Assembly: GCA_029964075.1 (NCBI GenBank)
Contig: CM057135.1
Span: 13,542,863 to 13,606,862 of the forward strand
Length of the DNA stretch: 64,000 nt
From: Patiria pectinifera
Lineage: Eukaryota > Echinodermata > Asteroidea > Valvatida > Asterinidae
Direction: 5' to 3'
Made by a program: the position numbers and the translations under genes. Positions 2,028 through 56,639 of the stretch are shown one piece after another. Under the pieces are notes generated by a model. The model ran no database searches. It saw only the letters and a list, made by a program, of their open reading frames with translations, and was not told the DNA's origin. The number at the start of each line of letters is the position of its first letter. Positions within the stretch are counted from its first letter, which is position 1.

Positions 2028-4719
2028 GAGTAGAAAATGGTGATGTTGTAACTCAGCTGGTCATTCCACAACCCCAGAGAGTATTAGTTATGAAATTGGC
2101 TCATGAATCAATTCTTGGTGGTCATCAAGGTTCAAAGAAGACAGCAGACAAAGTGTTATCTAGTTTTTTCTGGCCTGGTGTCCAATCAGATGTGCAACGT
2201 TATTGCCGTTCTTGTGATATCTGCCAGCGAACCATTCCGAAGGGAAGGGTCACTAGGGTTCCACTAGGTCGCATGCCGTTAATTGATGAACCATTTCAGC
2301 GTATTGCAGTTGACATTGTAGGTCCCATTTCACCAGTTACAGACAGAGGCAATAGATACGTACTCACCATGGTCGACTACGCCACAAGATATCCTGAAGC
2401 TGTACCACTGAAGAGCATCGAGACTCACAGAGTAGCAGAGGCACTTGTCGATGTGTTTTCACGAGTTGGTGTTCCACGTGAGATACTTACCGACCAGGGA
2501 GCACAGTTTACATCGGGCATCATGAAGGAAGTCAGCCGACTTCTCTCCATCAAGCAGCTAACAACTACACCCTACCACCCAGCATGCAACGGCCTTGTAG
2601 AAAGGTTCAACGGAAGCTTGAAGCAGATGTTAAAGAGGTTGTGTGCAGAGAAGCCGAAAGACTGGGACAGGTATATTGGTCCACTCCTGTTCGCATATCG
2701 AGAGACACCACAGGCGAGTCTTGGGTTTGCTCCATTCGAGCTTTTATATGGTAGGACAGTCAGAGGTCCCATGGCTATTCTCAAGGAACTTTGGTCTGAT
2801 GATGTTGAAACACCTGAGGTCAAAACAACCTATCAATACGTGGTAGATTTGAGGTCAAGAATCGAGGACACATGTCATCTAGCGCAAGAAGAGTTGAAGA
2901 AGTCCACCGAAAGGTACGCCAAGTACTACAACCGAAAATCACGACCACGTCAACTGAAGGAAGGAGACAAAGTTCTTCTTCTACTCCCAGTAGACCACAA
3001 CAAGCTACTACTACAATGGAAAGGTCCATTTACTGTCATTCGACGAATGAATAGCTACGACTACAAAATCGATCTTGGCAACAGAATGAAGACCTTTCAC
3101 ATTAACCTTCTGAAGCAATATCTTGAACCTGTCACTACTTCTAACCAGATTTCTTTTTGTTTCCCTAGTCATTGTTTGCCAGAAGGGATATTTGACATCG
3201 TATCCACAGCCGTCATCGAGGAAGATCCTTCGGATGAAGGTCCTGCAGATTTCCAGGTGATAGACAATGATTCACTGCAAATTCCTCCCCTCAAAGCAAA
3301 GGAGTCAGTAAGCGACGTCAAGATTCATGATGGTTTGAGCACCGATCAAGTTCATGAGGTAAGACAACTACTGAAGCGACATAGTCGGGTACTTACTGAT
3401 CTACCCGGCCGATCCAGTCTAGTCAAGCACAGGATTAAGTTGACAAGCTCAGATCCAGTACGATCCAAACCCTACCCATTACCTCACGCACTCAGAGACA
3501 CAGTCAAAGATGAAGTTGAATCCATGTTGAAGATGGGAGTTATAGAAAGGTCTGAGTCACCCTATGCATCGCCCATTGTCTTGGTAAAGAAAAAAGATGG
3601 CACTCAAAGGTTTTGTATAGATTTCAGGAGACTCAACCGAATCACCATCTTTGATGCTGAACCAATGCCAGACCCAGAAGAGATCTTCTCCAAGCTGTCA
3701 ACCGATCAGTATTTCACCAAGATCGACCTCAGCAAGGGATACTGGCAGATCCTTCTAGAAGACACAGCGAAAGAGAAAACGTCTTTCATCACACCAGATG
3801 GTCTTTATCAGTTTCGCACCATGCCATTCGGGCTCGTCAACGCTCCGGCGACTTTCAGCAGAATGATGAGAATGATGTTGAGAGGTATGAGTAATGTCAA
3901 CAATTTTATTGACGATATTCTAGTTCACACCAAAACCTGGGAAGAACATCTCAACACTCTAGATGGTCTCTTTGAGAGATTGGAGCAATGTGGTGTAACG
4001 GCTCGTCCAACGAAGTGTTTTGTAGGTTTCAACAAGCTCGAGTATCTAGGCCACATCGTAGGGCAAGGTCAACTAGAACCACTACCAGATAAGCTGATCA
4101 AAATCCAGGATGCACCAAGACCGAAAACCAAGAAGCAACTGCGGTCATTTTTAGGTTTGACAGGGTATTATAGGAAATTCATTCCTAATTATGCGGCGAT
4201 TGCTACACCCTAACCGACAAGACGAAGAAGAAAGAGCCGACAAACATCCAGTGGGAACAGAGTCAAGAATATGCATTCCAGACACTCAAGGACAGACTGA
4301 CAACTGCACCTGTACTTCATCTACCTGATTGTCAGCGACCATTCTTACTCCGTACTGATGCTTCAGACATTGGTATTGGAGCGGTCCTCCTGCAGCGAGA
4401 AGATGAAACTGATTTTCCAGTAGCCTACGCCAGTAGAAAACTACTTCCACGAGAGCGTTCCTACTCGACCATAGAACGGGAGTGTTTGGCCATTGTTTGG
4501 GCTGTTCAGAAATTTCAAACATATCTCTATGGCCGTGAATTTGTTCTGGAGACGGATCATCAACCTTTGGTTTACCTTCAACGCGCCAAAGTCACCAACA
4601 GTCGTATTCTTCGTTGGGCTTTGTCCCTACAGCCGTACAGGTTTAAGATTGAGTGTATCAAGGGTAGTGAAAATGTCGGCGCAGATTATCTGAGTCGGAG
4701 TGCGCCTGAAGTTGTCTAA
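2028..4719 (+). pseudogene. Integrase, reverse transcriptase and RNase H of Gmr1-like copy 1
   Basis: The first domain is an integrase: HHCC zinc-binding region (H-x3-H near 2100, CRSCDIC near 2210), then a catalytic core with VDIVGP, LTDQGAQFTS and a downstream E (GLVERFNGSLK), the D,D-35-E triad. A C-terminal domain with LLLQWKGPF follows. Reverse transcriptase comes next: YASPIVLVKKKDGT, FCIDFRRLNRIT, KIDLSKGYWQI, the FIDDIL catalytic motif near 3905, and LGHIVG. The connection domain (FLGLTGYYRKFIP) and RNase H (TDASDIG, ETDHQPLVY, ENVGADYLSR) end it. The integrase-first order is the point of interest. The frame is largely open, with about one break. Confidence 0.92.
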
Positions 4720-16469: not shown

Positions 16470-18590
16470 ATGGTCAGGGAAGTCAACGAAAGCAGTGATG
16501 ACGATGAGGACAACATGCAGTATGATGTCGCCGTTGTCAACCTACAGGAACCAAGAAAACAACTCGAGGACCTGATGATAGACTACATCGCTGGACAAGA
16601 ATCAGGCAACTGGACTGAAACCTGTCAAATTGGGAGAAACAAGGTGGACTTCAAGCTTGATTCAGGATCTCAAGCGGACATTCTACCAGAAGACTGTTTC
16701 AAAAACACTGGACTGGCATTGCTTCCCAGTAATGCATCCCTCAAATCCTATTAAGGGCACGAGATTAAGGCATTAGGAAATACCATAGCCAATTTGAAGG
16801 TTGGTACAGGTACCGGTTGCACCACACAACAAGTTGTTTTTCAAGTGGTAAGCGGAAATGTAAAACCTATCTTAGGTCTGAAAACATGTCAAAGGCTAGG
16901 ATTGATTAAGAGAGTAAGAGTAGATGAAGTGGTTAGTTGTAGTGCGCAAAATGTGCCAGTGCATAGCAAAATCACGTTCACAGAACACAATGATTTGTAT
17001 GAAAGGCTAGGGAAACTGCAAAACCACGAATATGAGATTGAATTGAATGTAGATGCCGCACCAGTTCAAAACCCTCCACGCACTATTCCTTACACATTGC
17101 GCGACAAAATGAGGGCTGAATTAGAGCGTATGGAAAAACTTGGGGTCATTGCGCGTGTGGAAGAGCCCACAGACTGGGTCAGTTCCATGTCAATAGTTGA
17201 TAAACCGGATGGCAGTGTGCGCATTTGTCTTGACCCGCGAGAGCTCAATAATGCCATAAAGAGAGCCCATTACCCTATGCCCACCCTCCGAGATGTTGCA
17301 GCGCATGCCACAGGCTAGGGTGTTTTCAAAGTTTGACGCTACAAGTGGTTATTGGCAACTTCCTCTCACACAAAGAAGCTCGTACTTGACAACATTTAAC
17401 ACACCCTTTGGAAGATTTCGATATATGGTTCTACCATTCGGCATCTCGTCGGCAAGTGAAATTTGGCAGCGCGCCATGGTCACTGAATTTGGGGCACTTG
17501 AAGGGGTTGAAATTGTTGTCGATGATATCCTAGTTTGGGGTGAAAACACAACTGAGCATGATGAGCGAGTAGCTAATTTCCTGGAAAAAAAGTCAGAGAA
17601 TCAGGACTTAAACTCAATAGGGAAAAGTCTGTCATTGGCACAGACAAACTTGAATATGTGGGTCATGTGATTTCTGCAGAAGGACTCTCACCAAGTCCAG
17701 CGCGTATCCAGTCTGTATTGGAAATGCCACTCCCAACTAACAGGCATGAGCTTGAAACCTTTCTCGGCATGATCACATACGTAAGTAAGTTCATTCCCAA
17801 TCTTTCTGAAATCACTGCGCCGTTGCGACAGCTTACCGAAAAGCAAATAGCTTGGCACTGGGATGAAAAACACACAAAAGCCGTGGAAACACTCAAGCAT
17901 ATTATAACATCAGCACCAGTACTGATGTTATATAATGTGAATAAGCCAGTCACTTGCTTGGCCACTGATGCATCCAACCATGGGTTTGGATCAGTATTGA
18001 TGCAAGATAATAACAGACCAGTGGCATATGCATCGCGTAGTACTAGTTCTGTTAAAAAAAATTACGCGACTATTGAAAAGGAGATGTGCGCCATTCTCTT
18101 TGCGTGCCACAAATTCCATGACTATATCTTTGGAAAACAGACAACAGTGATCACAGATCATAAGCCATTGGTAGGAGTGCTCCAAAAGCCATTGCATAAG
18201 TTGAGCCCACGATTGCAGCGTATGCGCGCATGCACCTACTGAGATATGACCTTAGTGTACAATGGCAACCAGGTAATACAATGTTTGTGCCAGATGCGTT
18301 AAGCCGCATAATAAATAGCAGAGGCGACAACATCTCAGAGTTTGATGACTCGCGGAAAATCAACATGATTTTAAGACAACTCCCAATTACTGAGTTACGA
18401 TTGCAGCAATTCCGTGAAGAAACAGCCGCGGACCCCACACTTGCGAAGGTCAAAGGTCACATTATGAATGGCTGGCCTGTTGATAAACACCACTTGACAA
18501 GTGATGTTGGCCCATACTATGCAGTCCACAATGAATGAGTGTTCTGTGATGGCATTATTTTTCTTGGCAACCGGGTTGTAGTTCCGTGAA
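16470..18590 (+). pseudogene. Protease, reverse transcriptase, RNase H and start of integrase (Mag-type)
   Basis: Protease has KLDSGSQADILP (near 16650) and a PILGLKTC end. RT has the PVQNPPRTIPYTLR entry, WVSSMSIVDKPDGSVRICLD, FDATSGYWQLPL, FRYMVLPFGISSASEIWQR and the catalytic VVDDILVWG near 17510. Connection (FLGMITYVSKFIPN) and RNase H (ATDASNHGFGSVLMQ, YATIEKEMCAILFACHKF, ITDHKPLVG, FVPDALSR) follow. The integrase N-terminal region appears only as EETAADPTLAKVK and GPYYAVHNE. Several breaks. Confidence 0.85.
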
Positions 18591-19991: not shown

Positions 19992-20989
19992 CACATTAAT
20001 TTTTAGAATGAAATATTACTTTAAAAATATGCCGGGGAAAAAAGGATAAAAAACTTTTAAAATGATTTTTTTTTCCATCGTCGTAAAAATCACAGGTGCA
20101 GATTTTTAAAAGTTATTAAACTTAAATAAGGTTATTTTGTACTGTGTTTTCCAATGGCTAATTCACAACAAATGATGTAGGAATCTATACGGTATTTCAT
20201 ATTTGTACTATTATGTAACTTTGAATATACATGTAATCCCATTGCATTTTGGTCAAAAATAAAATGAAGCAAACTTCGAGTCGAACTCCGATTTGAAAAA
20301 AATGACTTGAAGCTCGCTGATCCCCTGGATCATCCAATACATGTACATACACGTATACGCATTTGTATGCAGCATGTATGCATAGTGCCTGGCCGTGGCA
20401 GATTACATATCGGCCGACCGCAATATCGATAGGTTCAAAAAAAGATGGTCCGCGCGGGAATTGACCTAGATTGACCCGCAAAATGTTCGGGTTGTCTGTG
20501 ACGTAAGCAAGTCACCGACATATTTTTTTCTAAAAATGACTGCAAGTGCGCAGGCGTGCACATTCCCGAACGATGCATAGGGCAAGCTAGTTCGTGCACC
20601 CAAGAAAAACACGCTGATGAAGAAGCCATGTTGATCTGAAACGTTTATGATAATGATCTGACGATCGACGCGACGCGTGCGACCCTTAACCCTAAATGAC
20701 GTCACTCAGTCACGTGCTATGAATAATTCGGCGAATACCACATTAACCAACCTCGTCCCCAGGGTGTCGAGCAGTACGCGCCCACCACTACCTGCTCTCT
20801 CACCCTGGTATTGGATCATTTGCATGTGCAAGTTTTTTTGAACACGTATGCAAATGAGAAACAGTCTGGTGCCTGGATATGCGTTACACATTAGCGTTTG
20901 TTTTTGTATGCGGTGTCTGGGGTAAAAACAGAGTCAATTTGTAGCAGCGCGAGCACTATCGGCGGCCAAAAGGGCCAAAACTAAAAAAA
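19992..20989. other. No gene seen; one more weak hammerhead-like core
   Basis: Short reading frames here lack coding character. At about 20612-20645, CTGATGA and, 16 bases later, GAAACGTT echo the hammerhead core, but stem II is only three base pairs and stem I does not pair. The stretch is otherwise unique sequence with acatgtacatac words. Confidence 0.35.
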
Positions 20990-21330
20990 GAAAAAAAAAA
21001 ACGAAAAAAAAAACACTGTGAACAGAAACTAACAAAAACAAAATAAAAATAAAAAATTAAACCAAACAAAGAAATATAAACAAAGAACAAAAAGAAATAT
21101 CAAAATTTAAATAAAATAAAATCAAAACAAATAAAAGGTTAAAATAAAAGAAACAAAGAACAGAAAGAAACAAAGAAAAAAATAAACATAGAACAGAAAG
21201 GAACAAAGGCAAAAAAATAACCAGAAAACAGAAATAATTAAGTAACAAAATAAAAATAAAAATAAAACAATCAAATGAAAACTAACAACGGAGCAGAAAC
21301 AATTAACAAAAGACAGAGAATCTTAAAAAG
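20985..21330. repeat. A-rich simple-sequence tract (aacaaagaacagaaagaaa type)
   Basis: About 340 bp almost without C or T clusters, built from aaacaaagaacagaaag and aaaataaaa variants. It marks the left edge of the palindrome-rich repeat field. The minus-strand open frame through it is low-complexity and not coding. Confidence 0.8.
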
Positions 21331-21395
21331 TTCAACAACTTTAAACAAACTCAAAAGTAACAAGATATAGTGACTTAAACTATGCAGTTTTAGGA

Positions 21396-22070
21396 TGACG
21401 TCAAGTGACACATTATGACGTCATGATGACGTCATGATTCGACCTGAATCTTCAGATGGTGGTCTAAGTGTGTGCCAGGTTTCAAGTCGATCAGACCATA
21501 TTTTATATAATTTTTGCAAAATTTGAAGAAGATATTAAAATTTGAAAAATTCATAAAAAATCAGACGATAACGTCATCATGATGTAACTTCAGATTTTGA
21601 ATGCTGTTATCAATACCTACGTACCCACAAAGTTTCATAACGATCGGACATACCCTTATATGTGAATCAAAAAAATCACGTTTTTGATGACGTCATGATG
21701 ACGTCACACATTTAAGGAAATTTTGTGCATCTTTCTATGACCTAACAAACCTGTTACAAAAAGAATTTCGAATTTACCACATTCCGTGTATTAGATATGA
21801 GTAAAAGGTCCAAAAATTGAATAATTCATATAAAATCACACGATGACGTCATCATGACGTCACTGCAAGTTTCGTCTATAACACGTCCCGGAATACTTGT
21901 ATACTAAGTTTAAACCAAATCGGACTTCCGGTTCTGTAGATATAGGGCTTTAAAGTGTGCTCTTTTAGGATGACGTCACGTGATGACGTCATGATGACGT
22001 CATGATTTGGCATACATCTTCAGATGGTGGTCTAAGTGTGTGCCAGGTTTGAAGTCGATCGGATTTGAAA
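21396..22070. repeat. Two diverged copies of a CRE-doublet plus gatggtggtctaagtg block
   Basis: The segment with TGACGTCA doublet, cttcagatggtggtctaag and gtgtgccaggttt occurs at 21416-21500 and again at 21980-22065. Each is preceded by a further TGACGTCA. The intervening part has two more doublets (about 21688 and 21843). This is the left, differently organised end of the field. Confidence 0.75.
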
Positions 22071-22190
22071 AAAGTCCAAAAGTGCCTTGTAGAACGAAAA
22101 CACGTGTTATCCTATGGGGAAAAAAGTGGAAGAAAAAAAAAAAGAGAGAAAAAAAAAACTAGAGGTTGTGGTTGTGAACAACCACAGAGC
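22058..22190 (-). repeat. Hairpin 1 with CTAG and A-tract (Helitron-like terminus on minus strand)
   Basis: Plus strand: A/G-rich tract, CTAG (22158-22161), five bases, then stem GTGGTT (22167-22172) with AACCAC (22179-22184). Read on the minus strand this is hairpin, short gap, CTAG, T-run, the layout of a Helitron 3' end (hairpin, CTRR, T target). Confidence 0.45.
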
Positions 22191-22264
22191 TGTTCCCAGT
22201 TTTGATTCTCTATTGGACCGTTAACAAAATGATTTAATGATTAACAAAAAATTATAAGTGTCAC

Positions 22265-22310
22265 TATTCAATTGCCTATAAATAAACACCGGATGACGTC
22301 ATCATGACGT
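22265..22310. promoter_or_regulatory. Representative CRE doublet, starts 11 bp apart
   Basis: TGACGTCA-TCA-TGACGTCA is the type form. Similar doublets with the same 11-bp step lie near 21416, 21688, 21843, 21985, 23640, 24871, 25434, 25746, 26567, 27518 and 27709. TGACGTCA is the full palindromic binding site of CREB/ATF bZIP proteins. An 11-bp step puts both sites on one face of the helix. Regulatory use is inference; the repeats could keep the words for other reasons. Confidence 0.55.
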
Positions 22311-22661
22311 CATCATTACACAATGTTGTTTGAATTAGGGTCTTTGCTTGGACAAAGATTGGTGTAAATGAATTACTGGCAAAGAGTTGAAAATGCCCTC
22401 TGAATATCGACATTTTTTTAGAAATTTCTGTGTACAAAGTCTATGGGAAAAATTAAATATTAAAAAATCTATAATAAATCACTTGATGACGTCAGCATGA
22501 CGAAAAGTTTCGGCATACATCCTCAGATGATGGTTAATAACTATGCTGAGTTTAAAGTTGATCGGATTTAAAATAATTGCCAAAGTGGCTTGTAGAATAA
22601 AAACGTGTACAAAACCTATGGGGAAAAGTGGAGAAGAAAAAAAACCCAAAAAACAAACAAA

Positions 22662-22769
22662 CTAGAAATTGTGGTTGTGAACAACCACAGAGCTGTTCCC
22701 AATATTGATTATCTGTTGGACCCATAGACATATAAGTAGAGATCTATGTCTGTTTGCAACAGAAGATAG
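22662..22769 (-). repeat. Hairpins 2 and 3 in tandem
   Basis: Hairpin 2 repeats the GTGGTT/AACCAC stem (22671-22688), with CTAG at 22662-22665. Hairpin 3 (22744-22769) has the different stem CTATGT-CTGTT with loop TGC. The 28 bases after each stem resemble the left arm of another hairpin type (gagctgttccc, gggctttctgc), so the ends look like chained hairpins. Confidence 0.5.
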
Positions 22770-23991
22770 GGCTTTCTGCATTATGATTTGTTTTATCAAC
22801 GTCTCTGACTATCACTATGCAAGAACATAAAATCTGTCAAAGTTTGCTTGAAATCGGCTAAAACGGTCACTGTGGACAGGATTTGACATCAGCAACACGT
22901 GCGCTGTGCGCGGGCTGACTGACATACGATATGTACAACGTACGTGCATGTACATGTACCGGTACATTGTGGACATCCTGTGCATGTTTTAAAGCAGAGG
23001 TATTGTCAACCTGAAGTTTTAAGCTTGCGAAGGGCATGTCCGAGTTTGTTCATTGCCTCGAAGCTTTGAAATGTTTAAGACCTACCCTTAAACAGACAAC
23101 TAAAGCAAAAACTAATATAAAAACTGCCATGGTTGATTTTTCAGGAATTTTCTAAGGAAAAACGGTCTTTTCATTATAAATTCCGGTCTGATGACGTCAT
23201 ACACCTTAAACTTTGCACACGTCTTAAGTGGGTCAAGGTCATCATATACACCAATATTTAGGAGATTCCGACAAACTTCGCCACAGACATCTATTCAAAA
23301 TACATTTTTGAAAAAGTTCAACCTGTCGCTAGAGGGCGCTCGAAGATTGCATGACGTCATCGGTAGATGATTTGAAGAATACTATCGGCCAAGAGACTAA
23401 CACCGTTAAAAGCAAGTTCATATCTATTACCACTTTCAAATAATAAGCCACTTCCGGTTTTGGCCTTTTTCGACCGGAAGCAAGGGTCACGTGATTTCAC
23501 GCACACTGAATGAAATGAAGACCTCAATCTACTCTACCACTTGCCGGCAACAGAATGCTGCGGACGCGTACGGTTGATTTTTTATACATTTTTAAATATT
23601 AAAATTGTCACAAATTAATTGCATATAAATAAACACCGGATGACGTCATCATGACGTCATCATTACACAATGTTGTTTGATTTAGGGTCTTTGCTTGGAC
23701 AAAGATTGGTGTAAATGAATTACTGGCAAAGAGTTGAAAATGCCCTCTAAAAATTGACATTTTAAAAAAAATTATGTGTACAAAGTCTATGGGAAAAATT
23801 AAATATTCAAAATTCTATAATTAATCACGTGATGACGTCAGCATGACGAAAAGTTTCGGCACACATCCTCAGATGATGATTAATAACTATGTTGAGTTTA
23901 AAGTTGATCAGATTTAAAATAATTGGCAAAGTGGCTTGTAGAATAAAAACGTGTACAAAACCTATGGGGAAAGTGGAAAAAGAAAAAAAAA

Positions 23992-24025
23992 CTAGAGATC
24001 TATGTCTGTTTGCAACAGAACATAG
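23992..24025 (-). repeat. Hairpin 4 with CTAG, end of a higher-order unit
   Basis: CTAG at 23992-23995, then ctatgtctgtt-tgc-aacagaacatag (24000-24025), an imperfect 11-bp stem. It closes one 1.25-kb unit and opens the next, whose block D follows directly. Confidence 0.55.
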
Positions 24026-25038
24026 GGCTTTCCGCATTATGATTTTTTTTATCAATAATACGTCCCTGACTATGCATGAACATAAAATCTGTCAAAGTTA
24101 GCCGAAAATCGGCTAAAACGGTCACTGTGGACAGGATTTGACCTCGGCAACATGTGCGCCGCGGGCTGACTGACATACGAGATGTACTTTCAAAAGAAAA
24201 AGGGTCTTTTCATTATAACTTCCGGTTTGATGACGTCATCTGCCTAAAACTTCGCACACGTCTTAAGTGGGTCAAGGTCATCATATACACCAATATTTAG
24301 GCGATTCCGACAAACTTCGCCACAGACATCTATTCAAAATACATGTTTGAAAATGTTCAACCTGTCGCTAGAGGGCGCTCGAAGATTGCATGACGTCATC
24401 GGTAGATGATTTGAAAAATACTATCGGCCAAGAGACTAACACCGTTAAAAGCAAGTTCATATCTATTACCACTTTCAAATAATAAGCCACTTCTGCATTT
24501 GGCCGTTTTCGACTGGAAGCAAGGGTCACGTGATTTCACACACACGAGATGAAATAAAGACCTCAACCTACTCTACCACTTGCCGGCAACAGAATGCTGC
24601 GGACGCGTATGGTTGATTTCTTATGCATTTTTAAATATTAAAAGTGCCACAATTTAATTGCCTATAAATAAACACGGGATGATGTCATCATGACGTCATC
24701 ATTCCACAATGTTGTTTGAATTAGGGTCTTTGCTTGGATAAAGAGTGGTGTAAATGAATTATTGGCAAAGAGTCGAAAATGCCCTTTGAAAAGCGACAAT
24801 TTTTTTTTAATATTTGTGTACAAAGTCTATGGGAAAAATTAATTATTCAAAAATCTATAATAAATTAGTCGATGACGTCACCATGACGTCAATCTTCGGG
24901 ACACATCTTTGCTATAGGGACTATGCCTATGCCAACTTTGAATGATATCTGACAAAGATTAATGCCAAAAGTGGCGTGTAGAAAAAACGTGTACAAAGTC
25001 TATGGGATTAAGGCGACAAAAAGAAGAAGAAAGAAAAA

Positions 25039-25072
25039 CTAGAGGTCTATGTCTGTTTGCAACAGAACATAG
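25039..25072 (-). repeat. Hairpin 5 with CTAG, end of a higher-order unit
   Basis: Same stem as hairpin 4 (25047-25072), CTAG at 25039-25042 after aagaagaagaaagaaaaa. The 1047-bp distance to hairpin 4 gives the length of this unit. Confidence 0.55.
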
Positions 25073-25744
25073 GGCTTTTCCGTATTGTGATTGTTTTTAA
25101 TCAATAATATGCCCTGAATATGTATGAACATAAAATCTGTCAAAGTTAGCCAAAAATCGGCTAAAACGGTCACTGTGGACAGGATTTGACCTCGGCAATA
25201 TGATGTATGTGCGTGTGTATATGGTCTTTGCTTGGACAAAGAGTGATCTAAATGAATTACTGGCAAAGAGTCGAAAATGCACTTTGAAAATCGACCATTT
25301 TTTTAAAATTTTTGATGAAATCATCGTGACGTCTTTTCGGACTTTGCAAACTAGTACGATTATCTACCTACCCACCAAGTGTCATGACAATTGGACCTTT
25401 CCTTATATGAGTTTTGAAAAATCGCATTTTGATGACGTCATAATGACGTCACACATTTTTCAAGTTTTGTGCGAATACCTATTACCTAACAGACCAAATT
25501 CAAAAAAGAATTTTGCATTTTGCACGTTGCGTTCGGGAGATATGGCTAAAAGGTCCAAAAAATCAAATATTCATATAAAATCTCAAGATGACGTCATCAT
25601 GATGTCACCTCATTTTTAATCTATAACACATCCTGGTATAGCCACATACATGTACCAAGTTTCAACCCAATCGGACTTACATTTCTGTAGATATAAGACT
25701 TCACAATATGCACGTAAATTTTCAAAAATCAATAAAAAATTAGG

Positions 25745-26570
25745 TGATGACGTCATCGTGACGTCATAGTCTTGGCAAAATTTTTGTATGAGGGTCTTCC
25801 TTGGCTGTAACTTTGATGACGATTTCAGATCGCCATAGTCAATGAGTTAAAAATCCCACAGCAGAATAACTGCACCTTTAAATACGTGATTTGCCTTTAA
25901 ACTGAATTATTTTTATAAAATATTACTTGATATTCTGACTCTTGGGAATATTTTCAAGGAAATGGCAAACGTAAAAAAATACGATTTCTTTTTCCTTCTC
26001 ACAGTAATTCTCGGCCGAAGTTCAGAAACACTCAGTAAGATATATCAGTGTTGTATAGGGAAAGACTTGTGGAGAAAGCTGTGCACAAAGTCCATGAGAA
26101 AAAATAATTATTCATGAATCCATAATAAATCATTTGATGATGACGTCATCATGATGTCATAGTCTTCGCATAATTTTTGTATGAGGGTCCTCCTTGGCTG
26201 CAACTTTGATGACGATTCCAGATCGCCAAGTTATAAAAATGGTGGCTTGAAAACGTGTACAAGTCAATAAGTTAAAAAAAAACCCACAGCAGGAAAACTG
26301 CACCTTTAAATACGTGATTTGCCTTTAAACTGAAACATTTTTATAAAATGTTACTTGCTATTCTAACTCTTGGGAATATTTTCAATGAAATGACAGGCAT
26401 AAAAAAAAATACGATTTCTTTTTCCTTCTCATAGTAATTCTCGGAAGAAGTTCAGAACTACTCAGTAAGATATATCAGTGTTGTATAGGGAAAGACTATT
26501 GGAGAAAGCTGTGTACAAAGTCTATGAGAAAAATTAAATATTCATAAATCCATAATAAATCACTTGATGA
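25745..26570. repeat. Two tandem copies of a roughly 400-bp sub-repeat
   Basis: The stretch beginning at the CRE doublet and gtcatagtcttggcaaaatt (about 25760) recurs at about 26150. It includes gagggtcttccttggctg, cacctttaaatacgtgattt and gttgtatagggaaagac, and a third CRE doublet begins at 26567. It replaces blocks C, B and A in the third higher-order unit, so the units are modular. Confidence 0.75.
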
Positions 26571-27857
26571 CGTCACCATGACGTCACTCTTCGAGACACA
26601 TCTTGGCTATAGGGACTATGCTTATGCCAACTGTCAGATGTCTGACAAAGATTAATGCCAAAAGTGCTATAATACGTCCCTGTCTATGCGCATGCATGAA
26701 CATAAAATCTGTCAAAGTTAGCCGAAAATCTGCTAAAACGGTCACTGTGGACAGGATTTAACCTCAGCAACACGTGCGCTGCAGGCTGACTGACATACGA
26801 TGTATGTGCCTATCTACAACGTACGTGCATGTACATGTACACATTGTGGACGTCCTGTGCATGTTTTAAAGCAGAGGTATTGTCAACCTGAAGTTTTAAG
26901 CGTGCGCAGGGCATGTCCGAGTTTGCTCATTGCCTCGAAGCTTTGAAATGTTTTAGACCGACCCTTAAATAGACAATTTAAGTAAAAACTAATTTAAAAA
27001 CTGCCATGGTTGATTTTTCAGGAATTTTCAAAAGAAAAAGGGTCTTTTCATTATAACTTCTGGTTTGATGACGTCATCTTTCTAAAACTTCGCACACGTC
27101 TTAAAGGGGTTAAGGTCATCATATACACCAATATTTAGGCGATTCCGACAAACTTCGCCACAGACATCTATTCAAAATACATTTTTGAAAATTTTCAACC
27201 TGTCGCTAGAGGGCGCTCGAAGATTGCATGACGTCATTGGTAGATGATTTGAAGAATACTATCGGCCAAGAGACTAACACCGTTAAAAGCAAGTTCATAT
27301 CTATTACCACTTTTAAATAATAAGCCACTTCCGGTTTTGGCCTTTTTCGACCGGAAGCAACGGTCACGTGATTTCACGCACACTGAATGAAATAAAGACC
27401 TCAACCTACTCTACCACTTGCCGGCAACAGAATGCTGCGGACGCGTACGGTTGATTTCTTATGCATTTTTAAATATTAAAAGTGCCACAATTTAATTGCC
27501 TATAAATTAACACAGGATGACGTCATCATGACGTCATCATTCCACAATGGTGTTTGAATTACGGTCTTTGCTTGGATAAAGAGTGGTGTAAATGAATTAT
27601 TGGCAAAGAGTCGAAAATGCCCTTTGAAAAGCGACAATTTTTTTTAAATTTCTGTGTACAAAATCTATGGGAAAAATTAAATATTCAAAAATCTATAATA
27701 AATTAGTCGATGACGTCACCATGACGTCAATCTTCGGGACACATCTTTGCTATAGGGACTATGCTTATGCCAACTTTGAATGATGTCTGACAAAGATTAA
27801 TGCCAAAAGTGGCGTGTAGAAAAAACGTGTACAAAGTCTATGGGCTTTTGGGGAAAA

Positions 27858-27891
<34 letters not shown>

Positions 27892-27905
27892 AGAAGAAGA
27901 AAGAA
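27858..27905. repeat. GAA/AGAAG simple repeat
   Basis: About 45 bp of nearly pure (GAA)n just ahead of the hairpin cluster. Confidence 0.9.
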
Positions 27906-27929
27906 AAAAAATCAGAACAAAAAGAAAGA

Positions 27930-28192
27930 CTTTTCCGCAACAATGCGGAAAAGCCAAAAAAATGAGAACAAAAACAAAGGCTTTTCCGCAACTTTGCGGA
28001 AAAGCCAACCAAAAAAAAAGGAAAAAAAAAAACTTTAACGAAAACAAGAGCTGTTCCCAATTGAAATTGGGAACAGCTAAAAAAAAAAAGGAAAAAAACA
28101 ACTTTAACGAAAACAAGAGCTGTTCCCAATTGAAATTGGGAACAGCTAATAACAAAAACAAGAGCTGTTTCGGTGTGTACACCGAAACAGCT
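27930..28192. repeat. Cluster of five perfect hairpins with variable stems
   Basis: Five inverted repeats in 263 bp: 27930-27953 (cttttccgca stem), 27979-28006 (same stem, loop changed), 28049-28078 and 28118-28147 (identical, agctgttcccaatt stem), and 28163-28192 (agctgttTCGGTG stem). The last three share the outer AGCTGTT/AACAGCT arms. The inner arms of the fifth are quite different, yet both sides changed so that pairing is kept. Spacers are A/G-rich with taacgaaaacaag before the stem; hairpins three and four are 69 bp apart. Confidence 0.85.
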
Positions 28193-28195
28193 AAT

Positions 28196-28405
28196 AAGTA
28201 TTCTTGAACACTGAGGGCGTTGCGTATACAGACAAAAATAAGTACAGAAACTTCAACAACTATGAACAAACTCAAAGGGACTAAGTATTCTTGAACACTG
28301 AGAGCGTTGCGTATACAGACAAAAATAAGTACAGAAACTTCAACAACTATGAACAAACTTAAAAGGACTAAGTATTCTTGAACACTGAGGACGTTGCACA
28401 TCAGA
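28196..28405. repeat. Minisatellite, about 86-bp unit, 2.4 copies
   Basis: The unit begins taagtattcttgaacactga and recurs at about 28196, 28283 and 28369 with a few differences. Open minus-strand frames through it are a by-product of the repetition. Confidence 0.85.
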
Positions 28406-28650
28406 CAAAAACTTGTACAAGATACCGATGTATTGCGCATGCTTGTGTACGATAATAGGCCTATACAGTACGTGCGTCTAGCTGTGGACTTGACATGCTA
28501 GTTCCCCATGTATGCTGTGGTCCCACTTTTTTACGTGTTTTTGTAAGGCACCACCACCAGAAACCTCCTCTTTTTTGGTGGACCACATCTTTGGGGTACT
28601 GAGGTCCATATAAATAAGCAAGCACACGACCGCTTGGCTGCTTGGTGTAA
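28406..28650. other. No gene seen; upstream of the 28.65-kb exon
   Basis: About 245 bp with a TAGGCCTATA word and the repeated ggtccat region. Possible promoter (atataaataagc near 28610 is TATA-like, about 40 bp ahead of the ATG). Confidence 0.35.
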
Positions 28651-28966: not shown

Positions 28967-30207
28967 GTAGGTTTTCCTCCTGCTATTTTCGATGCTGTGT
29001 TTTGTTATTGTATTGCATGTTTACCAGACATACCATGTAAGTTTTATAACAGTTCATTATTGTCTTTGTAGGCCCTATGTCATCTCATCTGTCATACAGT
29101 ACAGGTTTTCAGTATCCATAAATAAACCTAGACCCGTGAACGTGGCTTGTAAACTATGCCACGCTCTTGTACATGTTCGAACCCAGCGAAATCGTCCTTC
29201 CGTGACAAAGACTGAACATTGCCTTACCATGTGATAAGTATTCACACATCAAACTTTCTAGAACATGTTGAAAACTGCTTTTACGCCAAATCTGGCATTT
29301 GAACGATAATCGAGGTAAAATGTGGCAAGATCTTCAACCTCCTCCTGATGCATGTGATTTACCACGTGATAAATGCTGCAGATATTGCACTGACGCTCTG
29401 GGCAATCCTGGATGTCCGGATCGTAAGTGCGATTCCCAATTATTAGCTGCGTTTATCCATGGTCACGTTATTGGCCAATCAGACGCCGCATATCATATGC
29501 GCCACATGAATCAAACTGGTAGCTTGGAGGGCTCCGATAATTTTGCACGCCCTCCGTGTGCACTGGGGGAGGGGGTCCTCCTGCCTTATGTTTTGTGTCT
29601 AATTCTAGAAGTAAGGCAAAACATGAGTCTGGGGCTGTATACAGCCATACTTATGGGGCTAGGCCTAACCCAAACTCCTGCAGTCGACTCGACAATAATA
29701 TCTTGCATAAAATGGCAACATGCAGTGTCATACATGTCATAAAGATGGCATTGAGAGCATTGGCACATACTTTTACATTTTACAGTTATTTTTTAACATG
29801 CAGGGTTTATTTTAGACCCGTGAACGTGGCGTTGTATACAACGCCACGCTGTTGTGTATTTTCGAACCTAGCGAAATCGATCCTCCATGCAGAAGTTCGT
29901 TTGGATGTTAAGTACTCACCTAGAAATAATTTGCCTGTCCGCGTGTTCAGGATGTGTTTTTTTCGACGAAATTTGCCATCAATGAAGACCCATACGAACG
30001 TGTAGAAATTAGATTTTAACCTGACAAGTGACCCTGACAAATGACCCTGGATGAGTATTGCCTGTGCGAGGAAGGTTCCCGTTGCTGGCCCCCAAACGTT
30101 AAGTTCAGTCGGTCAAGACCATACTTTCACCTGAAAATCAGGCACATGGTAGATGGAATACCCATTAGCAAAAAATGTTAAATTCTGCTCCTTTAGCGTC
30201 CTCGTTA
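28967..30207. other. No supported gene; contains a pair of short hairpin repeats
   Basis: Open frames here (for example 29299-29742) show a CCRYC and PDRKC pair but no recognisable family and no splice-site support. The repeat pair at 29129 and 29815 is listed separately. Confidence 0.35.
29129..29880. repeat. Two copies of a hairpin-bearing repeat (29129-29197 and 29813-29880)
   Basis: Both copies read agacccgtgaacgtggc, then gccacgct, then ttcgaacc(c/t)agcgaaatcg, then a cctcc/ccttcc end. In the second copy the arms ACGTGGCGTTGT and ACAACGCCACG form a perfect stem around TATAC. The two copies are 685 bp apart in the same orientation. Confidence 0.7.
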
Positions 30208-40984: not shown

Positions 40985-41460
40985 GTACTGACACGTCAGT
41001 ACTGACGTGTCCATACGTACGTACGTCGTACGGCCTGCTGGCCCAGGGTGTATACGCATGAGGGCGCGCTTTACATGAAGGATTGACAGACGGCAGGTAA
41101 CAGCCACCGGGCCTGCGCCGCCCCTCCGGCTAGGCTCCTGATATTGCGCGACGCCATTGTTCAGTTGGACCACGGACAATGAAGGAGGTAGAATCCAAGT
41201 TGCCAAAAAGGCTCCAGAAAAGGACGTAAATTAGGCAGCAGCTGGACAACTGACACTGGCCGCAGGTTCTCATTTTGTTATTAAGAGGGTAAGTGTACTT
41301 TTAAAGCTTAAATAAACTGGGTCTGAAGTCGCAATGTGGACAAATGGTGGAAATCACTTTCAACATTTTTTCAACATGTTCAACATTTCGCCGAGTACGT
41401 TTCCCATACGGTCGGTGTGTGGCCTATGTTTACGGAGGCAGTCCAGTAAACTGGCCACAT
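40985..41460. other. Unrelated filler between Gag and integrase C-terminus
   Basis: Begins at a 22-bp perfect palindrome (40990-41011), then a tacgtacgtacgt run. The rest is C/G-richer than its flanks and includes GAGGGTAAGTGTAC, which looks like a splice donor. It does not match any other part of the window. It replaces Gag end, protease and most of the integrase. Confidence 0.5.
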
Positions 41461-43107
41461 TTATGGGGCTACGTGGTCCTATGTCCAACCTGAAAGAATT
41501 ATGGACAGGTCAACAGGAAGAGACAGAGGTAAGATCAACATACCAGTATGTAATTGACCTCAAAGAACGTCTTGAAGACACATGCAAACTTGCACAGGAA
41601 AACCTCAGAAAGTCCAAGGTAAAACAAAAACACTACTATGACAGGAGTAGGGAACGCAATTTCAAGGTTGGAGATGATGTCCTCTTGCTACTTCCCACTG
41701 ACAATAACAAGCTTCTTTTGCAGTGGAAGGGACCCTTTCCAGTGGTCACCAAAGTAGGCAAGGTAGACTACCAGATAGATCTTGTAGGTAAGGTTAAAAC
41801 ATTCCATGCTAACCTCCTTAAGCTTTATATCCACCGCGAGAAACAGGTCAAGGATAAAAAGGAGATGGAACAGGTTGAGAGTGAACCTCTCGTCGTTAGT
41901 GTAGCCCTAGTTGACTCTGAACAACTTGATGACAACAACCAGATAGAAGATAAAGAACTGCTTCTTTCTCCGACGTTGAAGGCGACAGAAACAATAGAAG
42001 ATGTGAAGGTAAGTGATAGTCTAACCACTGAACAGAAAAGACAAGTTAATACACTTTTACTTCAGTTTACAGATATCCTGACCGACATGCCTGGAAGAAC
42101 AACCGTGGCCGAACAGGAAATCAAACTAACTACAGACGAACCGGTAAGACTAAAACAATACCCCCTACCTTTTGCACTTAAGGACAAGGTGAAGGAGGAA
42201 ATTGCCCTGATGCAGAAGTTAGGAGTAATTGAACCATCCGAATCACCTTACTCATCCCCAATAGTGTTGGTTGCAAAGAAAGACAAGACTGTCAGATTCT
42301 GTATTGATTTTCGAGGGCTTAACCGCATAACTGTCTTTGATGCGGAACCCATACCTAACCCAGAACAGATTTTTGCATCACTTTCACAGGATAAATACTT
42401 CAGCAAACTTGACCTAACTAAAGGTTATTGGCAGGTACCTCTTCACAGAGATTCAAGAGCAGCAACAGCTTTCGTCACACCACAAGGTTTGTATCAATTC
42501 TGCATGATGCCCTTTGGACTAGTTAATGCCCCTGCCACGTTCAGTTGAATCATGAGAAGGATGTTGAAGGGTCTGAAGAACACCGACAACTTCATCGACG
42601 ACATACTAGAAAACACCCCAACATGGGAAGAACACCTTACCATCCTGGAGGAATTCTTCTTCAGATTGAGAGCCACAAGACTGACAGCCTAACCCAGTAA
42701 GTGTGATGTAGGATATCATTCCCTTGAGTTGTTGGGTCATGTTGTTGGTAATGGAAAGATGAGTCCACAACCTGACAAGCTACAACACATCAAGGAGGCC
42801 AAACGACAAGACACGAAGAAACAGTTGCGTTCGTTCTTAGGATTGGCGGGATACTATAGACGCTTCATTCCAAATTTCGCAGCCATTGCAGTCCCTCTGA
42901 CTGATCTCACCAAGAAGAAAGAACCAACACACATCCAATGGGGTCCTAGTCAAGAGGAGGCTTTCACCACCCTCAAGAATAAACTCACCACTTCACCAAT
43001 TCTCCAGTTACCAGATTGCACAAAGCCATTTGTACTACGCACTGATGCGTCCAACACTGGAGTTGGTGCAGTTCTCCTTCAAGAGCAAGATGAAGAAGAA
43101 GATTTTG
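41461..43107 (+). pseudogene. Integrase C-terminus, reverse transcriptase and connection domain, Gmr1-like copy 2
   Basis: Integrase tail: GPMSNLKELWTGQQEE and LLLQWKGPFPVVTKVGKVDY. RT: YSSPIVLVAKKDKTVRFCID, GLNRITVFDAEPIPNPEQIF, KLDLTKGYWQVPL, MMPFGLVNAPATFS, and LGHVVGNGKMSPQPDK. Connection: FLGLAGYYRRFIPNF and TDASNTGVGAVLLQE. Frame broken in a few places. Confidence 0.88.
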
Positions 43108-46664: not shown

Positions 46665-47325
46665 AGTAGTATATACTGAGCATTTCGACCCCCAATGAGG
46701 TGGCATCGAGGTGAGGCGTGAGGCGGGATGGTGAGGCGGGTGAGGCGGGATGAGGCGGGTGAGGCGGGATGATGAGGCGGGTGAGGCGGAGGTGAGGTGG
46801 TAGTGAGGTGGAGGTGGTAGTAGTGAGGTGGAGGTGGTAGTGAGGTGGAGGTGGTAGTGAGGTGGAAGTGGTAGTAGTGAGGTGGAGGTGGTAGTGAGGT
46901 GGAGTGAGGTGAGGTGGAATTTTTTTATTTTTTTTATTTTTTTATTTTTTTTTTATTATTTAATTGTAATTTTTTTTTCTTCTATTTTTTTGTTTATTTC
47001 TTAATTTATTGGGGTTTATTTTCTTTAAATTTGACTGTAATATTATTTAGATTTTAAGATGTCTTAGCTTACGGCGCCACTTTAGTGGCGACAGTGAGCT
47101 CACGCTAGTGAACCCGAACGGAGTGGGTAGAGGCGTAAGCCTCTAGACTTGTGTACGAGCGACGAAGTCGCGAGCAGGCCTCCATTACGGAGCCACGTTA
47201 GTGGCGACATTGGCTTTACGCTAGTAACCCGAACGGAGTGGAACTGTAACGTAAGTCTCGAGACTTGTCTCGAGACTCGTGTGAGAGCGATGAAGTCGCG
47301 AGCACGGCTCTAAGGCCCTGGTTTC
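46665..47325. repeat. Left terminal inverted repeat of the inner Polinton
   Basis: Begins AGTAGTATATACTGAGCATT, then a GAGGCGGGATG and GAGGTGGTAGT minisatellite (46690-46920), a T-rich stretch, and two related modules, each with GCCAC-TAGTGGCGACA, CCCGAACGGAGTGG and GCGA-GAAGTCGCGAGCA parts (47073-47178 and 47179-47312). The right TIR has the same parts. Confidence 0.9.
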
Positions 47326-47490
47326 CTGAATCCCCTATGACTATCTGCTTTTTTTTTCCTTTCCTTTTTTTAATTTTTAAGACCAGTTGTAAAAGATGTT
47401 AAATTTAATTCGTTATGTAGTATTAAATTAAAACGTTATGTAGTATATACATGTAGATAGGCCTACACTACCAATACGCGAGCCATTCTT
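47326..47490. other. A/T-rich spacer next to the left TIR
   Basis: No feature; T-rich and with a TAGGCCTACAC word. Confidence 0.4.
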
Positions 47491-47492
47491 AT

Positions 47493-48030
47493 TTCTAAAG
47501 ATGAGCTTTCTTAATGTACAAGATGAGCTGTCCATCACATTGGCCTTTGTTCTAATTCTAAGACTAGTGCCGATGTTCTGTGGCACGGCCCCGTGGTTGC
47601 CGGAGCAACTTCCACAACAAACATCACAAGGGCTTTTCTAATTTCTAAGATGAGCTTTCTTAATGTACAAGATGAGCTGTCCATCACATTGGCCTCTGTT
47701 CTAATTCCAAGACTGGTACAAGTGGTTGCTGGAGCAACTTCCACAACAAACATCAAACGGGCTTTCCTAATTTCTAAGATGTGCTTTCTTAATGTACAAG
47801 ATGAGCTGTCCATCACATTGGCCTCTGTTCTAATTCTAAGACTGGTACAAGTGGTTGCTGGAGCAACTTCCACAACAAACATCAAACGGGCTTTCCTAAT
47901 TTCTAATATGAGCTTTCTTAATGTACGAGATGAGCTGTCCATCACTGTTTTAATTCTAAGACTGGCACCGATGTTCTGTGGCAAGGCCCCGTGGTTGCCG
48001 TAGAGACTTCCACAACAAACATCACTTCAT
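47493..48030. repeat. Tandem repeat, 129-bp unit, about four copies (inner Polinton)
   Basis: The unit starting atttctaagatgagctttct recurs near 47493, 47640, 47769 and 47898. 129 is a multiple of three, so open frames of about 140 codons persist on both strands through the array. These have no homology I recognise and are probably by-products. Confidence 0.9.
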
Positions 48031-48235
48031 TAATGTGGATCTAAAAAGTAACCGTGACAAACATTGTCATGTAAAAAATTTTCAATGGTCGTTGCCAAGG
48101 TGTCTTTGAAAATACGGGTGTTCTTTGGGAGGGTATAACTAGGATGCGGCACAAGGCCCGCTCATATCTGAGTGATCGACCGATCTTAGATAGTCAGCTT
48201 CACTTCCCCGTCGAACTTCAACCATCATCGTCAAT

Positions 48236-48322
48236 ATGTCTCAGCAGCCTTGGGAGAGCCCTGACTACACGGACAGCGAACTGGACGAAATTCAAAGAAT
48301 CGCCGATGAGATGTATAAAAAC
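48236..48322 (+). CDS. polB exon 1 (inner Polinton)
   Basis: ATG in an AATATG context opens MSQQPWESPDYTDSELDEIQ with RIADEMYKN, ending at a strong donor (GTAAGT at 48323). It is similar to the first exon of the 35.6-kb remnant, so the two-exon leader is conserved. An acidic leader of this kind has no known catalytic role; it may be a docking segment. Confidence 0.6.
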
Positions 48323-48329
48323 GTAAGTG

Positions 48330-49230
48330 CATGATTTTATTCCAAAATGTTTGCATTTAACGCACCAACCGTTTGCGTATTTCATCCTTGTATTTGTAAC
48401 CTATTTTACGAGATGTAGACCTGAAAATATAAAATTACATGCTTTAATTTCTTCACAATGTTTGCATTTAACACACCAACCGTTTGCGTATTTCATCCTT
48501 GTATTTGTAACCTATTTTACGAGATGTAGCCCTGAAAATATAAAATTACATGCTTTGATTTCTTCACAATGTTTGCCTTTTAAGACGTCGACCAATTCCG
48601 TATCAGTACCGTTCTTAAAATGTATTTCATTTTTGTACATGGCCAACTACAATAACTGCATTTTGTTAAAACTCTTTATCCTTTTCACATGTTTTACGCG
48701 ATGTACGAACGCCTACAATTGCATAATTTGTTTTTCTTCAAAATGTTTGCATTTAATACATCGGTCTTTTTCGTATCAGTACCATCTCCTAGAATATATT
48801 TTAGTTTGGTACTTGGCCAACTACAATTAGTGCATTTTGTTAGAACTCTTTATCCTTTTCACATGTTTTACGCGATGTACAAACGCATAAAATTGCATGA
48901 TTTGTTTTTCTTCACAATGTTTGCATTTAATACGTCGGTCATTTCCGTATCAGTACCATCTCTTAGAATATATTTAATTTTTGTACCCGGCCAACTACAA
49001 TTACTGCATTTTGTTAGAACTCTTTATCCTTTTCACATGTTTTACGCGATGTACGAACGCTTAAAACTATAATACATATTTTTTCCCCAAACTTTTTGCC
49101 TTTTAAGACGTCGACCAATTCCGTATCAGTACCGTTCTTAAAATGTATTTCATTTTTGTACATGGCCAACTACAATAACTGCATTTTGTTAAAACTCTTT
49201 ATCCTTGTAACCTGTTTTACGACGGTCCTG
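48330..49230. repeat. Tandem repeats filling polB intron 1
   Basis: Two unit types alternate. One of about 117 bp (tttgcatttaacacaccaac, tttacgagatgtag) occurs in two copies. One of about 185 bp (gtatcagtaccgttcttaaa, ggccaactacaataactgca, ttttacgcgatgtac) occurs in about four copies. The intron (48323-49417) is almost wholly repeat. Confidence 0.85.
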
Positions 49231-49417
49231 TTTTAAGTCGATACGAATGATGTATAAGTTAATTTAAACTATCGTTTGAAGTTGTATTTCTTGCTATTTT
49301 TTCTTGCATAAAACTGAGTAGCATCCGATGTGCGCAAAAAACCAAAACAAAACTAAACACAAAACACAAAAAAAAAGTAGGATATTTATTATTATTATTT
49401 ATTTGTGTATTTAACAG

Positions 49418-49504
49418 GATGGAGGCTTTGTTTACAATCCTGTCGATTTCCCTCCTCTAAGACCACTTGACCAGGCGCCTGCATCAGAAAATGGAGGAGA
49501 TGAG
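49418..49504 (+). CDS. polB exon 2 (inner Polinton)
   Basis: Between TTAACAG and GTACGTG: DGGFVYNPVDFPPLRPLDQA and a short acidic end, in phase with exon 1. It lies between tandem-repeat intron 1 and the CRE-bearing intron 2 (49505-49848). Confidence 0.55.
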
Positions 49505-49627
49505 GTACGTGAAAATATCTTCTTCTTTTTCTTCTTTTTTTGTCCCTTCTTCTTCTTTTTCTCATGTATCTTACCGATATCTACAGGATGAACCATTTTC
49601 AAGTTGAGACCTGTCCATATCTATCCA

Positions 49628-49700
49628 TGACGTCACGCTTTGTATTATTCCGTTGTCGTCCATGAGAGTGATTGCCTGTTAAGACTTGTCGTTGACGTCA
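49628..49700. promoter_or_regulatory. Two TGACGTCA (CRE) sites in polB intron 2
   Basis: Perfect palindromes at 49628-49635 and 49693-49700. Chance expectation in a 345-bp intron is far below one. They may drive an internal promoter for the large polB exon. Confidence 0.5.
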
Positions 49701-49848
49701 CGGGGGTTCATAAACACACGGATAAATTTCGCATAAAACAGTCGCATAAATTTCTCCCGGTAATCACTGTCGCTATCGACGGTATCACACAGTGTTTGTT
49801 ATACATTTGTTCTAAACGACATTTTATATTTATTTGTCTTTTAACAAG

Positions 49849-54266: not shown

Positions 54267-55084
54267 TCAAAGAAAACTGTTAGGCTCGTCAAAACATCAA
54301 GCAAATTTCTTTAAACTGGTGGTGGTGGGTAAATTGGTGGTGGTTTAAACAGTACGCTAATGTTTTTTTTATTTTTATTTTTATATTTGTTTAATTGAAA
54401 AAAAGTTACAATCTGCCGTTGAAAAATAACTTGGAAATGCTCCTACTTCATTTTAATTTCACCAACTGCTATTTAAAAAAATAATCCCAAATGTTTCCAC
54501 TTCGTTTGAAATTTCACCAACTACTATTAAAAAATATTTCAGAAATGATCCAAATTTATTTGAAATTACACCAATTCTACACCAATTTTTTTTTTTTTAA
54601 TTTTTTTTTAGAATGGTTCCCACTTCATTTTAAATTGTGGTTAATGAATATTGGTATTTTGAAAAGAAATCATAAATTTCCCATTTTTTTAAATTTTGGA
54701 TGGTTTACTAAATTGATCACTGCTCTTAAGAAAGAATTCGTACATTTTCTAATTATTTTTAATGTTGATATTACTTATGTTCATCTTTATTTATTTATTT
54801 TTCCCTCCATGGTTAAATCAAAGAGTTATGTATGTCTTTTTGTTTACTTGGTTAAATAAAGAAGAAAGAAAGAAAGAAAGAAAAAAAAAAAAAAGATTGA
54901 AAGAAATAAGAAAAAAATAAACTGTTGTCTGTCACTTTCAATTTTATAATGCTTATTGTTAAACAAAACTTTCTTTTTAATAAATTGAAGGGGGAGTAAT
55001 AAACTAAAGGGGGGAGGGAGGGTAGGAGTTAAAACTTTAGCTATTAAAACGAACTACATTACAAAAATAGATTCATTTGATCAA
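54267..55084. other. A/T-rich spacer, no gene seen
   Basis: Dominated by T- and A-runs and aaagaaagaaag repeats; an open frame at 54491-54859 is low-complexity and F/L/I-rich, not credible as protein. Ends with a GGGGGAGGGAGGGT run before the ATPase. Confidence 0.5.
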
Positions 55085-55726: not shown

Positions 55727-55762
55727 AGGATTGTGTTTAGAGCGGACGGCAATCATTTGAAG

Positions 55763-56089: not shown

Positions 56090-56091
56090 AT

Positions 56092-56595: not shown

Positions 56596-56639
56596 TACGC
56601 ACGCACTACCCCGACTTAATCATTTGAGACTACCTCATC

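Follow-up and report, generated by a model that had tools for sequence, protein, structure and literature searches.

A CREB-type octamer in dispersed satellite-like repeats of the sea star Patiria pectinifera shows signs of conservation

Introduction

Why should one short stretch of sea star DNA carry several dozen copies of the same perfect eight-letter palindrome? This question is raised by a block at positions 21396..27730 of a 64-kb window of the Patiria pectinifera genome (the whole stretch of DNA analysed, to which all window positions refer), located on contig CM057135.1 (C7:13542863-13606862; assembly of 613.5 Mb in 1020 contigs). The palindrome, TGACGTCA (hereafter the octamer), is the canonical site of CREB, the cAMP response element (CRE); strong binding depends critically on its CpG, and TGATGTCA is a functional form of lower affinity (available text of PMC1796609). 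An original prediction, made from the letters alone, had reported about 37 octamers in this block, mostly in doublets one helical turn apart, and had considered an enhancer array for basic leucine zipper (bZIP) proteins, a bait for CREB/ATF, or a mutational or transposition cause.

The octamer array and its spread through the genome

The exact octamer occurs 45 times in the window, where 100 shuffles gave a mean of 1.08 (standard deviation 0.97, maximum 4), and exactly 37 of these copies fall within 21396-27730, in agreement with the earlier count. Twelve exact pairs recur there at an 11-bp step, with TCA (4), TGA (3), CCA (3), TAA (1) and TCG (1) as spacers. The dozen doublets and five spacers first reported are thereby borne out, but the statement that the octamers lie mostly in doublets holds for 24 of the 37, the remaining 13 being singles or having a mutated partner octamer. 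Words with one mismatch are few (only 6 in 21300-28000, versus 37 exact), and the one at 22884, which has no doublet context, looks like chance. The array shows little CpG depletion (observed/expected 1.02, and 0.92 once the octamers are left out). Duplicated segments make up much of the block (e.g. of 95, 93, 87, 82, 78 and 70% identity), and because such copies are not independent, the number of 37 overstates the independent cases.

Over the whole 613.5-Mb genome, octamer pairs with a gap of 0-30 bp number 10,952 (39 with the reversed control pattern), and a genome-wide check of the spacing, as had been suggested, returned 7,853 doublets with a gap of exactly 3 bp against 0 in the reversed control. 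Among 208 octamers from the window and from 12 loci (L233-L244) picked by similarity to a piece of the repeat W described below, independently of the octamer, neighbour distances of at most 40 bp were 11 bp in 52 cases, 20 bp in 7, and 13 and 14 bp in one case each. Dispersed satellite-like repeats with CRE octamers, which show signs of conservation, are a real, genome-wide feature. A local enhancer array, as first considered, is unsupported because the same monomers are present on many contigs; on a CREB/ATF bait the results speak neither for nor against. Among the matches listed from titles and abstract openings of the open-licence literature, we found no paper on CRE-bearing repeats of such kind.

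The doublet pattern is also met in 37 stretches of the viral_contigs collection and at least 118 of genome_contigs. When the array region was compared with these 155 loci by blastn, three matched: L113 through its A-rich flank only, and L116 and L059 only around the octamers, over 48 and 42 columns. No relative of the repeat was thus detected among these doublet loci outside the genome. Three more specific doublet patterns yielded 0 matches in viral_contigs, and both an Rfam scan (gathering thresholds) and a tRNA scan returned 0 matches. One of the outside loci, L050, carries doublets with an 11-bp step at 2396-2414 and 2977-2995, one of them with TGATGTCA, but is unmatched to the array of the window by blastn; it is a 3.2-kb contig without frames of at least 300 nt from a Bathymodiolus symbiont bin, and probably represents DNA of the host mussel.

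The repeats that carry the octamers

The block is largely a local pile of nested tandem monomers from dispersed satellite-like repeats without evident genes. The W monomer is ~1.34 kb long (1,340 bp), with five octamers at positions 47, 58, 240, 938 and 1098, and lies in tandem at four fetched places (L233-L236, on C7, C21, C16 and C11). A 398-bp W query gave 3,139 first-look candidates genome-wide, and all of the 40 that were scored matched (40/40). In the window, W is represented by one complete monomer (22247-23594) and five incomplete ones. The V monomer (~575 bp, nine octamers) is arranged head-to-tail in L241 and L244, and the V reference from L241 matches window stretches 21515-22063 and 25314-25696. 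The U monomer (~172 bp, one octamer) was seen in L240, L242 and L177, and is head-to-tail in L240 and L177, so that a head-to-tail, satellite-like arrangement is found at several places for all three types. By eye, GGTGGTCTAAGTGTGT downstream of the octamer is common to V and U, and we infer that the various kinds, W, V and U, belong to one superfamily.

A fourth repeat, D, is large and without long frames, and is centred on one end of C1 (~0-4.5 Mb) and on unplaced contigs (L159-L175, L179-L192). The sample comprised 35 loci (L159-L193) among the matches listed, from the start of C1, of which 31 aligned to D in an alignment that counts two places twice (L160/L175 and L162/L174). The other four (L176, L177, L178 and L193) showed no match to L174/L175 except for 43 bp in L177. 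W and D have 43 bp in common (86%), located at the doublet, and the 11-bp step recurs with differing spacers in W, V and D. Members of subfamily D2 have a TATA box 3 bp past the doublet; genome-wide, the doublet followed by NNN and TATAAA occurs 15 times, of which 11 on C1. The doublet followed by 12 nt and CAGC was found at 46 places, 32 of which are D1 (23 on C1 and 9 on unplaced contigs); of the remaining 14, 11 show by eye a window-like TTCGG/CTCGG/CTCGA flank and 3 do not. As both the TATAAA-doublets (11/15 on C1) and the CAGC-doublets (32/46 D1) concentrate on C1 and unplaced contigs, D is a local family. The idea that a promoter, i.e. doublet plus TATA box, was the general cause of the doublets was rejected, given only 15 such places in the genome.

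Two of the loci that did not align to D, L176 and L178, lie ~290 kb apart on C1 in opposite orientation and are 99% identical. Their octamer units lie at a distance of ~3 kb from a frame for a reverse transcriptase, after which comes a GIY-YIG match, a combination that we take to be Penelope-like.

Conservation of the octamers within the repeats

The original prediction also suggested that selection or copying acts on the pair as a unit, and proposed a comparison of changes inside doublets and in flanks. We scored the mean intactness of the octamers against that of all 8-mers in the same monomers, excluding the reference row; this random-8-mer test assumes independent sites and rows, and its P values are optimistic since neighbours at 11 bp and rows from one array are related. 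Loci had been selected by their octamers or by likeness to the window. In the W alignment (27 rows: the reference and 26 pieces, 6 of them from the window and 2 from L177), 82 of 85 octamers were intact (mean 0.965 versus 0.747 for all 8-mers, P 0.0005), and 60 of 62 (P 0.004) after removal of the window and L177 rows. Variable columns amounted to 3/40 in octamers versus 409/1302 elsewhere, and changed cells to 3/723 versus 875/22461. All three octamer changes were to TGATGTCA, the CpG-to-TpG form, and among non-CpG columns none of the 30 in octamers varied, versus 357 of 1208 others (Fisher 4.7e-5).

V behaved likewise, with 50 of 70 octamers intact over 10 rows (mean 0.713 versus 0.384, P 0.001), 36 of 49 (P 0.002) without the window and L177 rows, and, against the L241 reference, 25/627 changed octamer cells versus 458/4067 others (11 rows). 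For U, 8 of 10 octamers were intact without the reference (0.8 versus 0.324, P 0.06), with 2/88 changed octamer cells versus 173/1788 others (11 rows). Within the window, 15 pairwise comparisons favoured the octamers likewise, with uneven significance (4 with P<0.05). V block A differs in its flanks from blocks B and C by 0.32-0.34, and A, B and C keep 6, 5 and 7 of their 8 shared octamers, respectively. Nine window doublet groups had an octamer identity of 0.89 and ungapped flank identities of 0.44 and 0.32, with gapped flanks no better than a shuffled control; this is the weakest of the tests, because the groups were selected for having doublets. Together, the W and V comparisons give a sign of constraint beyond recent copying in these two types.

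As for the unit concerned, the pair was evidently copied, since its 11-bp step is inherited within repeat families. As a selected unit it fares less well: although octamers of W and V change less than other 8-mers, the single octamers of W (240, 938 and 1098), which stand in unlike contexts, are as intact as its doublet. The octamer is therefore a better candidate than the pair for what selection acts on.

A number of results weigh against such conservation, so that the proposed comparison of octamers and flanks came out mixed. Among 38 distinct rows of the 398-bp piece, which represent the youngest W copies, octamers were intact at 0.956 versus 0.886 (P 0.16), and 5/24 octamer columns were variable versus 96/374 others (P 0.81); changed cells were nonetheless fewer in octamers (5/912 versus 256/14183). 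A further W set of 12 rows, which overlap with those 38 in their first parts, kept 38 of 41 octamers (0.882 versus 0.768, P 0.17) with 1/24 variable octamer columns versus 72/412 (P 0.15), and its octamer at position 1098 was intact in only 2 of 4 rows. D revealed no octamer protection, with 10/672 changes in non-ascertained octamer cells, part of which are octamers already broken in the subfamily, versus 441/27265 elsewhere (split: 2/432 and 8/240 versus 219/17470 and 222/9795). The recent V pair B-C even changed faster in octamers (6/64 cells versus 24/459 elsewhere). The relatedness of array rows and the linkage of neighbouring sites, which render every P value for constraint optimistic, count on the same side.

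What may keep the octamers

A bZIP site is the simplest reading of the octamer, as suggested by its identity to the canonical CRE, the critical CpG of that site and the remaining function of its TGATGTCA form (available text of PMC1796609). The repeats have the exact 8-mer and, as the same text describes for CREs, TGATGTCA as decay form; unlike a CRE as described there, the octamers stand in tandem repeats, with 11-bp-step doublets far above the reversed control. The doublet step in W and V means that two bZIP dimers would occupy the same face of the helix. At the Atf1/Pcr1 sites of fission yeast, of M26/mat type, an ATGACGT-type bZIP word acts on recombination or chromatin, a similar word in another kingdom.

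The best reading as a whole, in which we place slightly more than even confidence, is that CREB/ATF-type sites are kept because they help the repeat lineage to spread. W occurs in tandem arrays on several contigs, and the octamers of W and V outlast other 8-mers of the same monomers. The genome further encodes a CREB-type pKID segment (a search for pKID gave one match of 30.4 bits at a cut-off of 25, in a frame reading ...ILSRRPSYR...), from which a CREB-type factor is likely encoded and a fitting trans-factor likely present. CREB/ATF-type bZIP proteins would bind these sites and open up the repeat or bring about its transcription, probably within the germ line. Lineages that keep the sites would spread better, so that selection would work on the lineage as it propagates and far less on each resident copy. 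Octamers that are kept between arrays and older units while being near-neutral in the youngest copies make up the pattern expected of such selection. The spread itself may proceed by a rolling-circle, Helitron/Helentron-like mechanism, as hinted at by end structure.

A further-reaching version, which we consider doubtful, is that satellite-like repeats with thousands of perfect CRE doublets (7,853 exact ones with a 3-bp spacer) depend on host CREB/ATF for their spread or for array chromatin, with the 11-bp step as a docking place for two dimers. If true, an entire class of repeats would respond together to cAMP or stress signalling. Should the sites be bound, they would amount to thousands of paired landing places for one signalling pathway, supplied by repeats; the genome would then offer a testable case of a satellite-like repeat retaining a host transcription-factor site to aid its own spread, and new CREB-responsive elements could arise naturally near genes from this source.

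With regard to the pKID exon itself (C11:13605502), two doublets with window-like flanks (13626098 and 13627218) lie 20-22 kb from it, which may be chance.

Among the competing explanations, an unlikely one is that the octamers are bound by a protein with which the repeat mobilises itself (a transposase or Rep) rather than by a bZIP protein. Plant CACTA elements have many short protein sites in their ends, and here too the sites per element are many and Helitron-like ends are nearby. However, the W sites are scattered over positions 47 to 1098 of 1,340 bp instead of clustering at one end, the sole octamer change in W rows is the CpG-to-TpG form, and no such protein turned up, though none was sought. 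That the word is the canonical CREB site (available text of PMC1796609) also argues against it. Equally unlikely in our view is neutral hitch-hiking, in which the founding units happened to have the sites, and recent amplification, local homogenisation and the choice of loci create the semblance of constraint. The lack of significant protection in young copies (youngest W, second W set and D), the faster octamer change in the recent V pair, the selection of loci via octamers or window similarity and the dependence among rows of one array are all in line with it, but it accounts poorly for a deficit of octamer change that appears in both W and V, persists without the window and L177 rows, and includes W positions 938 and 1098, outside the 398-bp query by which loci were found.

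Less probable still is a function at the level of the host, with arrays serving host genes as enhancers, insulators or anchors of chromatin, and with sites selected copy by copy. W does combine octamers with CGCTAGAGGGCGC, presumably a CTCF-like word, which together with a further T (a 14-mer) is unbroken in 15 of the 16 W rows, and in L177 an open frame of 108 aa, which we take to resemble an NCKX-type exchanger exon although Pfam assigned it no family, is found ~2 kb away from a W copy. Doublets that number in the thousands, no significant protection in the youngest W and none in D nevertheless speak against selection on each copy. That doublets persist as hairpins or cruciforms, being inverted repeats with a 3-nt loop, seems very improbable: several do have perfect arms of 10-11 bp, but compensating changes were found in 0 of the 7 listed doublets with a mutated octamer, and the broken doublets at 22487 and 23833 keep one perfect octamer (TGACGTCA with TGACGAAA). 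This idea was rejected on the ground that isolated W octamers are kept as well as paired ones.

Helitron-like ends and A-rich cassettes

On its minus strand, W contains a 20-nt hairpin (9-bp stem) followed by 4 nt, CTAG and T. This Helitron-like 3′ end lies at 22159..22186 and again at 22662-22689 (starts at 22162 and 22665), and the element makes up the longest stretch without variation (43 bp) in the W alignment. The scan was a loose one with 14 other matches among 16 in the window, several of these being octamer doublets or, probably, chance. Canonical Helitrons have 5′ TC, 3′ CTRR, a 16-20-nt palindrome ~11 bp from the end and insertion at A/T (available text of PMC4067079). In agreement with this, W has CTAG after a 20-nt palindrome, and then T; unlike it, the hairpin is 4 nt from CTAG rather than ~11. 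No 5′ end or insertion site turned up, though neither was sought.

A-rich cassettes of ~69 bp with the palindrome AGCTGTTCCCAATTGAAATTGGGAACAGCT accumulate immediately ahead of this CTAG in L235 (2890-2995) and L236 (2850-3165), and at the right array end in L234 (2941-3175) and in the window (27905..28192, plus strand); several palindrome sequences share this layout. Palindromes occur both at the array right end and in W, as candidates for the palindrome that HINE (see below) have near their 3′ end.

Helentron-associated elements with satellite-like central repeats have been described as Cg_HINE in the Pacific oyster (PMC7492417) and as HINE/DINE-1 (PMC4067079), with tandem units of mostly 140-180 bp (available texts of both). 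The present repeats are similarly dispersed, without evident genes and with arrays of short tandem units (U, ~172 bp), and share a microsatellite-like A-rich stretch and, possibly, palindromes at one end. HINE have subterminal inverted repeats of ~11-15 bp at both ends; the ends of the window array taken as putative element ends, 20801-21450 and 27841-28520, have no inverted word of at least 10 bp in common (low-complexity words excluded). Unlike in HINE, monomers here reach 1.34 kb, and all three types have exact CREB-type octamers, which the available descriptions of HINE and Cg_HINE do not include. The carrier resembles Helitron/Helentron-type elements but is not assigned to them here.

Layout of the block and neighbouring elements

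The octamer stretch (21396..27730, no strand assigned) is built of tandem repeats nested in one another, mostly of types W and V; all copies listed here are on the plus strand. V block A (21515..22063; 88% over 558 alignment columns to the L241 reference) has doublets at 21688, 21844 and 21984, a decayed doublet at 21569 and a single octamer at 21971. The V-type copy of block B (25263..25800; flank divergence 0.32 to block A and 0.05 to L177) has doublets at 25433 and 25748, a half-decayed one at 25589 and a decayed one at 25316. The complete W monomer (22247..23594, 1,348 bp, 95.3% to the L233 reference monomer) carries a doublet at 22294/22305 and singles at 22487, 23192 and 23352; exact word search gives this typical CRE doublet, TGACGTCA-TCA-TGACGTCA, at 22294..22312 (no strand). 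It is followed by a partial monomer (23594..23991, monomer positions 1-399) with a doublet at 23641/23652 and a single at 23833.

Further partial copies were assigned by match to the W reference monomer. Those in 24188..25043 (24188-24633 and 24633-25043) have singles at 24231 and 24391 and doublets at 24680 (TGATGTCA)/24691 and 24873/24884, and those in 26674..27844 (26674-27471 and 27471-27844) have singles at 27069 and 27229 and doublets at 27518/27529 and 27711/27722. Alignment within the block revealed two more related copies in 25715..26593 (25715-26168 and 26105-26593, 82% alike), with doublets at 25748/25759 and 26568/26579 and a half-decayed one at 26141/26152. The presumed CTCF-like word CGCTAGAGGGCGC lies at 23327..23339 (plus strand), 12 bp left of a single octamer, with others at 24366 and 27204.

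To the right of the array, a hairpin CGTGGCGTTGTATACAACGCCACG at 29825-29848 and one that is similar by eye at ~29133-29200 stand in otherwise alike flanks; they belong to another repeat, whose hairpin varies in sequence. Gene fragments of long terminal repeat (LTR)-type retrotransposons are present at 2090-4213, 17658-18242 and 41334-42548, with matches to reverse transcriptase, RNase H and integrase. The region 46700-63200 has matches to a viral-type DNA polymerase B, an A32/IVa2-type protein and an rve integrase, together with GGTGAGGCG-rich repeats in opposite orientation at both ends, and is presumably a Polinton/adintovirus-like element. Octamers lie at 49628 and 49693, ahead of its polymerase frame starting at 49905, and at 62721/62735 (14-bp step), ahead of a leftward frame starting at 62545.

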